From: Amycolatopsis granulosa
Lineage (GTDB): Bacteria; Actinomycetota; Actinomycetes; Mycobacteriales; Pseudonocardiaceae
Reading direction: 5' to 3'
Assembly: GCF_011758745.1 (NCBI RefSeq)
Contig: NZ_JAANOV010000001.1
Span: 2,542,001-2,606,000 of the forward strand
Length of the DNA stretch: 64,000 bases
The notes under the pieces are model-generated. The model was given only the letters and a program-made list of their open reading frames with translations, was not told the origin of the DNA and did not search any database. The translations under genes were made by a program, and so were the position numbers. Below, one piece after another: positions 28,141 through 29,116 of this stretch (positions within the stretch are counted from its first letter, which is position 1; each line of letters begins with the position of its first letter).

Positions 28141-28250
28141 CGGTTGTCCACGCTACTCGGGGGCTCCGACGGTTTACCGCGGTGGACGTACGGCGAGGTG
28201 TCGTCACCGGATGGACGCGCGGCGCGCCGCCGGGGCGGACCATCGACGGC

Positions 28251-28646
28251 ATGAACACACCATCGAAACGGATGCGGGCCGGTGACCAGGACCGGGAGCG
28301 CGTGGCGGGCCGGCTGCAGCAGGCCGGCGGCGAGGGCAGGCTCTCGCTCGCCGAAACCGAAGACCGGATGGGTGCCGCGTACGCGGCGACCTACCTCGAC
28401 GAACTGGCCGCGCTCACGCAGGACCTGCCGCGGCCGGCGCCGCCGGAACCACCGAGGCCGCCGCGCTTCCCCGTGCCGCTGCGGGTGCACGCCGCGGTCG
28501 TGGCCGTGTTGTCGGCGCTGCTCATCGTCCGGTTCGTCGCGTCGGGCGCGCCGTTCTTCTGGCCGGCGGTGCCGTTGTTCTGGCTGGGTGTGAGCCTGCT
28601 CGCGCACGCGGCGATCCGTTACCGGCGGCGAGCTGTGCCATACTGA
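28251..28646 (+). CDS. DUF1707 (SHOCT-like) membrane protein
   Basis: This is a 131-residue protein. The DUF1707 domain at residues about 8-60 reads MRAGDQDRERVAGRLQQA and GRLSLAETEDRMGAAYAA. The family is a small N-terminal domain found ahead of membrane segments in actinobacteria. Two hydrophobic segments follow (AVVAVLSALLIVRFVAS, PAVPLFWLGVSLLAHAA) with a basic end. ATG 28251 is chosen because the domain begins directly after it; an ATG at 28182 would add an unlike extension. Function is unknown. Its 3' end overlaps the probable promoter of the chorismate mutase leader. Confidence 0.8.
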   Translation: MNTPSKRMRAGDQDRERVAGRLQQAGGEGRLSLAETEDRMGAAYAATYLDELAALTQDLPRPAPPEPPRPPRFPVPLRVHAAVVAVLSALLIVRFVASGAPFFWPAVPLFWLGVSLLAHAAIRYRRRAVPY

Positions 28647-28650
28647 TCCC

Positions 28651-28713
28651 GTGCAGCACCACGCGTACCGATTTTTCTACGGGATCCGGACTCCGGCTCC
28701 CGTGATCGCGTAG
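28651..28713 (+). CDS. Leader peptide of the chorismate mutase gene (Phe/Tyr-rich)
   Basis: A 20-residue frame starts at GTG 28651 and stops at TAG 28711-28713. It contains AYRFFYGIR, with Phe-Phe-Tyr codons in a row and an earlier Tyr. A CATACT hexamer at 28639-28644 sits six bases before the GTG, the spacing of a leaderless mRNA whose first base is the start codon. The codons for aromatic amino acids lie just before the antiterminator arm, so ribosome stalling for lack of Phe- or Tyr-tRNA would favour antitermination. Regulatory role is inferred from the arrangement. Confidence 0.75.
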   Translation: MQHHAYRFFYGIRTPAPVIA

Positions 28714-28765
28714 GTGCCCACACCACCGTCACTGCAAGCCCCGGAGTCCGCGGACCCGGGGCTTT
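28687..28765 (+). promoter_or_regulatory. Transcription attenuator (antiterminator and terminator)
   Basis: The terminator stem is AGCCCCGG (28737-28744) with CCGGGGCT (28756-28763), followed by TTTCG. CGGACTCCGG (28687-28696), inside the leader-peptide frame right after the FFY codons, is the exact reverse complement of CCGGAGTCCG (28741-28750). The 28741-28750 segment includes half of the terminator's left arm. The two structures are therefore mutually exclusive, as in ribosome-mediated attenuation of amino-acid operons. Confidence 0.8.
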
Positions 28766-28810
28766 CGTCGGCTTCGGGGCCGCGCGGTCCGGAACCGACC
28801 GGAGGGCCCG

Positions 28811-29116
28811 ATGAACGCACAGACACATGAGAAGGACACCTCGCCGGAGTCCTCGGGGGAACCCGTGGCGACGGCCGAGGAGATCGCCGAGCTGCGCAAG
28901 GAGATCGACTGGCTGGACGCGGAGATCCTGCGGCTCGTCAAGCGCCGCGTCGAGGTCTCCCGCCGCATCGGTGCCGCGCGGATGGCCGCGGGCGGCACCC
29001 GCATCGTCTACAACCGCGAAATGGACGTGCTCGCCCGCTACCGCGAGCTCGGCCCGGACGGCCGTCAGCTCGCCATGGCCCTGCTGAATCTGGGGCGTGG
29101 ACGGCTCGGCCGCTGA
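28811..29116 (+). CDS. Chorismate mutase, AroQ type
   Basis: This 101-residue cytoplasmic AroQ-class chorismate mutase converts chorismate to prephenate, the first step specific to Phe and Tyr. The characteristic first helix is EIAELRKEIDWLDAEILRLVKRRVEVSRRIG, with the active-site Arg and Lys residues; later come AARMAAGG and REMDVLARYREL. Size and sequence resemble the M. tuberculosis enzyme Rv0948c, which is weakly active until it binds DAHP synthase. The leader peptide and attenuator upstream suggest control by Phe/Tyr supply. The gene follows the terminator after about 45 bases, and a good ribosome binding site (CGGAGGG) precedes the ATG. Confidence 0.9.
   Translation: MNAQTHEKDTSPESSGEPVATAEEIAELRKEIDWLDAEILRLVKRRVEVSRRIGAARMAAGGTRIVYNREMDVLARYRELGPDGRQLAMALLNLGRGRLGR

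Follow-up and report, generated by a model that had tools for sequence, protein, structure and literature searches.

In Corynebacterium glutamicum, a Phe-Tyr-Phe leader peptide precedes aroF in the aroR-aroF attenuator (accessible text of PMC11802643 and PMC4046766), which is reported to answer Phe and not Tyr (PMC11802643, same portion). The leader peptide of Escherichia coli pheL-pheA senses charged tRNA-Phe ahead of the gene for chorismate mutase-prephenate dehydratase (PMC11802643, same portion). Leaderless leader peptides before amino-acid genes are found in Streptomyces lividans (trpL, leuL and ilvL), for which eight attenuators are given, answering Leu (2), Trp (2), Ala, Ile, Met and Thr and none of them Phe or Tyr, as far as the accessible part of PMC8079986 goes. 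A 2005 survey found no conserved RNA structures upstream of phenylalanine/tyrosine operons of Actinobacteria, according to the available part of PMC1262725. Four further papers on actinobacterial uORFs, attenuators or transcriptomes (PMC4633059, PMC13236596, PMC4128351, PMC5784534) do not use the word chorismate in their main texts as available. We found no leader or attenuator of chorismate mutase (CM) described in the literature listings and partial texts that the search covered.

The locus described here lies in a stretch of 64,000 nucleotides (the window, 64 kb) from a genome that is a single contig of 5.62 Mb. A leader open reading frame (ORF) with aromatic codons is followed by a short spacer, a GC-rich hairpin at 28736–28764, a GGAGG site and a CM gene, all on the plus strand. 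The arrangement resembles C. glutamicum aroR-aroF in that an actinobacterial aromatic leader peptide precedes an aromatic-pathway gene; the two are likened by description, and the target is DAHP synthase (aroF) there but CM here. It shares with E. coli pheL-pheA a leader before a CM function, whereas the E. coli system belongs to another phylum and has a fused enzyme. With S. lividans trpL, leuL and ilvL it has in common an actinomycete leader peptide that is leaderless (here probably so).

Leader ORF, promoter-like element and CM gene

The leader ORF (28651–28713) starts with GTG, has 20 codons and reads MQHHAYRFFYGIRTPAPVIA, the same 20-residue peptide as in the preliminary description of this DNA. 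Its putative control codons TTT TTC TAC (Phe-Phe-Tyr) are located at 28672–28680, and an extra Tyr codon at 28666–28668. A candidate promoter, an extended -10-like element (TGTGC + CATACT), occupies 28634–28644. The element shares its last base with the stop codon that closes the upstream ORF (28182–28646), being the first base of that codon, and CATACT ends 6 nt before the GTG. If transcription starts where the element predicts, the element is too close to leave room for a Shine-Dalgarno sequence of the leader ORF. A sigma-70 consensus scan found no promoter at the leader. Among 100 distinct leader sequences, 91 have a loose xANNNT pattern upstream of the start codon, ending 6 nt (71 sequences) or 7 nt (20) from it; the remaining nine comprise five that lack the pattern and four in which no start was found. 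The earlier claim that the peptide is apparently leaderless draws its one line of support from this spacing, by which we consider a leaderless ORF probable. E. coli pheL is a leadered ORF.

The CM gene (28811–29116) encodes 101 aa, matches Pfam PF01817 (40.2 bits, over the cut-off) and is preceded by a Shine-Dalgarno-like CCGGAGGG at 28799–28806. Its product also matches PDB 2qbv, the intracellular chorismate mutase Rv0948c of Mycobacterium tuberculosis, with E 1.4e-29. CM supplies Phe and Tyr synthesis (PMC11802643, accessible text). As a PF01817 gene and Rv0948c homologue, the downstream gene acts in the biosynthesis of the amino acids that the leader is predicted to sense.

Mutually exclusive RNA structures

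Folding and covariation place a first hairpin, the 1:2 hairpin or anti-antiterminator, at 28678–28704, with the helices TACGGGA/TCCCGTG and CCGG/CCGG and the loop ACT. The control codons sit at its 5' foot, which a ribosome on the Phe codons would cover under the assumed footprint. Segment 2, CGGACTCCGG (28687–28696), is the 5' side of the antiterminator. The preliminary description put the FFY codons directly before this segment; the codons are there, but GGG ATC intervene and the two are not adjacent. Segment 2 is the exact reverse complement of CCGGAGTCCG (28741–28750), as had been noticed before, and this partner lies inside the left arm of a terminator-like hairpin at 28736–28764 (segments 3:4), for which folding and covariation are the basis; with its short U-tract (CTTTCG) the feature extends to 28766. 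Segment 3 (28737–28750, from sequence and folding) can pair with segment 2 or segment 4. An inner helix B is nested in the antiterminator (28702–28705 with 28729–28732, and 28701 with 28734; 28701–28734 overall) and encloses the leader stop codon. Helix B and the 1:2 hairpin were absent from the preliminary description.

The antiterminator (28684–28751) folds at -32.6 kcal/mol (z -4.67), the 1:2 hairpin folded alone (28678–28705) at -17.3 kcal/mol (z -4.13) and the terminator folded alone (28738–28766) at -20.7 kcal/mol (z -3.84); 0 of 200 shuffles were as good in each case. The longer stretch 28684–28766 prefers the terminator fold (z -2.74; 5 of 200 shuffles as good). Bases 28741–28750 are common to antiterminator and terminator, so that the two folds exclude each other, as originally proposed, and each folds better than shuffled sequence. 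The hairpin at 28736–28764 was not listed in a consensus terminator scan. No Rfam family, leader families included, matches the 64 kb window at gathering score; an Rfam riboswitch or T-box was rejected on these zero matches. A frameshift at the T-run was discounted as well, since the slippery heptamer there does not lie in frame.

Conservation within the family

A CM match is present in 120 of 120 sampled genomes of the window's family (f1). We read 110 CM loci, i.e. 30 from family genomes (the window's own included) and 80 on named contigs, the best 80 of at least 101. The leader motif of the layout that the preliminary description suggested looking for upstream of orthologues was present at all 110 (100 distinct sequences). 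Named loci come from Amycolatopsis, Prauserella, Saccharopolyspora, Lentzea, Saccharothrix, Actinokineospora and Kibdelosporangium, and one of the 80 is labelled Candidatus Melainabacteria. L001, a second copy of the window locus, was dropped. The 110 loci were reduced to 50 by similarity, and after removal of L017, L020 and L111 (indels) the remaining 47 sequences made up alignment A2, from which the covariance model R1 was built.

R1 finds the leader in 119 of the 120 family genomes at E 0.001; the sole genome missed (G087) has merely a distant CM homologue. More than one R1 match was obtained in 26 genomes, where the second matches are antisense of the same locus or have E 8e-4 or weaker; G070 has a second R1 place at E 6e-5. 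With the segments located by pattern, the core antiterminator keeps nine of nine pairs in 94 and eight of nine in six of the 100 distinct sequences. The leader of L033 (Amycolatopsis bartoniae) is shorter by one base after FFYG, so that its end is read in another frame (FFYGTGLRLP), and the RNA helices are intact; this is either a natural test of peptide versus RNA or a sequencing error.

In the window's own genome, R1 gives one strong full-length match and six more at E 0.057 or weaker, two of which are antisense of the same place; a second strong copy of the leader was rejected on these values. A similar leader attenuating the class II DAHP synthase gene of this genome was rejected too, as no clustered Phe/Tyr codons in a short ORF were found in the 600 nt upstream. 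Upstream of this class II DAHP synthase gene (L235, approximately 1080–1300), repeated direct and inverted units GGTGAACACGCC / GGCGCCGTGTTCACC were seen by eye.

Conservation beyond the family

At E 0.01, R1 matches 186 of 249 genomes of the order, 42 of which belong to the window's family, and 43 of 296 genomes of the class, 20 of them from the order. Among 40 picked order loci (three from the family), 38 have a CM by tblastn within about 900 bases downstream. Typical leaders are RFFYGYR.AVPVV in f8, FFYGYR.PVPVSG in f4, [YF]FYYGTGSPAAVGRA in f15, FFYGYRSSVPVVSG in f2, F[FYS]YGHRDPVSV in f16 and RFFYGSGHPAAV in f13, with variants in most of these families. The CM of L150, from the mycobacterium-like f8, aligns closely with Rv0948c. 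Most of these sequences were found with R1, whose seed holds the motif, and conservation outside the family is therefore partly selected for. Among R1-negative order genomes, 26 of 63 were looked at and 19 have a CM homologue. Phe and Tyr are kept despite changing codons and neighbouring bases, also at these loci, about 9 of 19 of which show an aromatic leader by eye. CM matches were also obtained in 39 sampled genomes outside the order. Twelve of the 13 highest-scoring CM loci there show an upstream aromatic short ORF by eye (examples are FFFTYG, FLFTYG, FFYG and FFYAL), and one is unclear.

Weak matches of R1 need not mark a CM gene. In G180 the order match is on a different contig from the CM, and in G555 the locus of the first match contains no CM. 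Nine of 28 loci from the class search (L148–L175), with E 7.7e-6 or weaker, have no CM, and two of the 11 from outside the order have one (L151, L163). In the f8 genera g65, g80 and g83 (L217, L219, L220–L223, L247), the CM gene has no FFY leader in the 420–450 nt read, and the attenuator seems to have been lost or replaced. Four R1-negative order loci of f3 (L226, L228, L229 and L230) have CM leaders with FFYG or FFYR and another end (e.g., TPATAPGEEV); their bases are unlike R1 and their control residues are the same, probably in a different RNA layout. Two loci of f28, from another order of the same class (L260 and L262), have CM genes preceded by the leaders RFFYALTGVRSGLGC and DFFYALTGVRSGLGC, which look like a separate variant.

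Control codons and covariation

Across 151 sequences, control position 1 is Phe in all, position 2 is Phe in 132, Tyr in 15 and another residue in four, and position 3 is Tyr in 149, Phe in one and Val in one; Gly follows in 151 of 151. Phe and Tyr account for 97 of the 619 residues that precede FFY (98 sequences), and Trp is absent from them. The stop codon lies 33–45 nt from the first base of the first Phe codon in at least 147 of the 151 sequences. TTT serves as the first Phe codon in 96 of the 97 distinct sequences from the family, and is found among the first two control codons in 149 of 151. In 30 long, GC-rich ORFs of the window (at least 600 nt, third-position G+C above 0.85), 3 of the 371 Phe codons are TTT; this choice of ORFs lowers TTT somewhat. 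The near-invariant TTT could reflect tuned sensing or a T-run used as an RNA feature.

Covariation is seen for the 1:2 hairpin and only weakly for the 2:3 helix. In A2, the structure made up of 1:2 hairpin and terminator has five pairs that vary on both sides, a count that averages 0.9 in shuffles and was reached by 0 of 500. Fifty distinct 25-mers of the 1:2 hairpin from ten families (three of the 53 distinct ones, with indels, were left out) are 91.1% paired against a maximum of 86.7 in 1000 shuffles, and have 21 cells changed on both sides against a maximum of 13. By the number of pairs with a both-side change, four, there is no excess, as 326 of 1000 shuffles reach it. The arm of helix B matches its own partner more closely than it matches the partners of other classes (12 arm classes, permutation p 0.017). 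Within the family (A2), the 2:3 helix shows one-sided G-U changes, no both-side changes and no excess over shuffles, which may be expected because the segment must pair twice. In a swap test of this helix (up to 15 distinct members per family, 59 used), the own pairing is 3.4–4.3 kcal/mol better in f1, f8, f15 and f16 and no better in f2 and f4, nor in f7 and f12, each represented by one or two sequences; over all ten families, p is 0.059.

Folding of complete and nascent RNA

Folding the RNA in both states, a check suggested in the preliminary description, was applied to complete and to nascent RNA. When the terminator is complete, a ribosome-dependent switch emerges at equilibrium in only 1 of the 151 sequences, and the family means of terminator probability stay at 0.82–0.96 even when the ribosome is stalled. 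It follows that the decision has to be a kinetic one, as it is in known attenuators. In nascent RNA that lacks the right arm, with a ribosome on the first Phe codon, the left arm mostly pairs with segment 2 in 149 of 151 sequences. The antiterminator probability of this window is 0.74 in the stalled and 0.74 in the free RNA; family means are 0.74 stalled vs 0.71 free in f1 and 0.72 vs 0.11 in f8, and a gain above 0.2 from free to stalled RNA is seen in only 41 of the 151 sequences. The antiterminator value of the stop state is zero by construction in this calculation. With the ribosome on the Tyr codon of this window the probability is 0.63 vs 0.74 on Phe, the same direction as the report that aroR answers Phe and not Tyr.

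Proposed mechanism and alternative explanations

We conclude that the leader is very probably a ribosome-mediated transcription attenuator of the trp/phe type, by which CM expression would be set by charged tRNA-Phe and probably also tRNA-Tyr. This reading is built on the anatomy of the locus, its conservation, covarying pairs in the 1:2 hairpin, the terminator and the inner helix, and the fold preferences of nascent RNA. Conserved aromatic codons, exclusive structures, compensatory changes in the first two of these structures, a near-fixed distance to the stop codon and a downstream CM gene were all found, so that the attenuator first proposed from this sequence has mostly held in its sequence-level predictions, its function being a prediction. 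It is tempered by the nascent RNA of this window being alike in the stalled and free states, by the equilibrium switch in 1 of 151 and by the uneven 2:3 covariation.

The promoter and start site, translation, termination, folding order and amino-acid response are inferred as follows. Transcription would begin at or beside the GTG, and this leaderless end would be where a ribosome initiates. With ample Phe and Tyr, the ribosome should reach the stop codon at 28711 and cover segment 2; the 3:4 terminator is then proposed to form and transcription to stop before CM. When Phe is short, the ribosome would halt at TTT/TTC (28672–28677) and cover the 5' foot of the 1:2 hairpin, leaving segment 2 free. 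Helix 2:3 and the inner helix would then be in place by the time segment 4 is transcribed, and the polymerase would continue into CM. Stalling at Tyr should work less well than at Phe because the ribosome then covers part of segment 2. With no ribosome, the 1:2 hairpin would be made first and should favour termination.

It is improbable that the switch acts on translation, with RNA folds that hide or expose the CM ribosome-binding site and transcription not stopped. The site, about 35 nt past the hairpin, is unpaired with a probability of 0.15 when the antiterminator is forced vs 0.31 in free RNA; sequestration of the site was rejected since it is not freed in the antiterminator state. The CM start codon, on the other hand, is somewhat more exposed in the antiterminator state (0.80 vs 0.61). 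Translational control would also agree with the short U-tracts of f1 and f8, which average 3.5 and 3.1 T in 8 nt, but a mean of 4.4–5.0 T in 8 nt stands after the homologous hairpin in f2, f4, f13, f15 and f16. Cysteine genes of Mycobacterium smegmatis are said to be under translation attenuation (cited in PMC13236596, accessible part).

Arrest by the nascent peptide, in which FFYGxRxPxPV itself would stall the ribosome, perhaps as a metabolite sensor, and codons and tRNA charging would not be the sensor, is less probable still. It would account for the strong conservation of the peptide end RTPAPV in the family, but the residues after FFYG vary between families (YRSAVPVV, GTGSPAAV, HRDPVSV, GSGHPAAV). 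They vary along with the hairpin bases, as expected of an RNA constraint, and in L033 the frame is shifted after FFYG with the RNA helices kept. Least probable of all is a hairpin that simply terminates the upstream ORF, or a leader that is constitutive and contains the short ORF by accident, because the end of the upstream ORF at 28646 lets one expect some terminator after it but not the aromatic codons, promoter spacing, competing helices and widely conserved rare TTT.

Implications

This putative attenuator is of a known kind, and its leader is unusually widespread and nearly universal in one large family. R1 is a ready covariance model for its annotation. With a probable leaderless start and a near-invariant rare UUU, the leader is a clean system for asking why control codons use a rare synonym. 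As a tentative proposal, rather doubtful at present, the CM leader may be one ancestral attenuator of the actinomycete class that was inherited with the gene, with the rare UUU sharpening the sensing of tRNA-Phe and CM acting as a flux valve. CM supply would be the valve of the Phe/Tyr branch, because CM has an attenuator and the one DAHP synthase gene examined has none. In mycobacteria, CM and DAHP synthase form a complex. If the proposal is true, CM supply would, via this complex, also set the feedback on the whole pathway. The leader is a candidate control of the chorismate branch point in actinomycetes.
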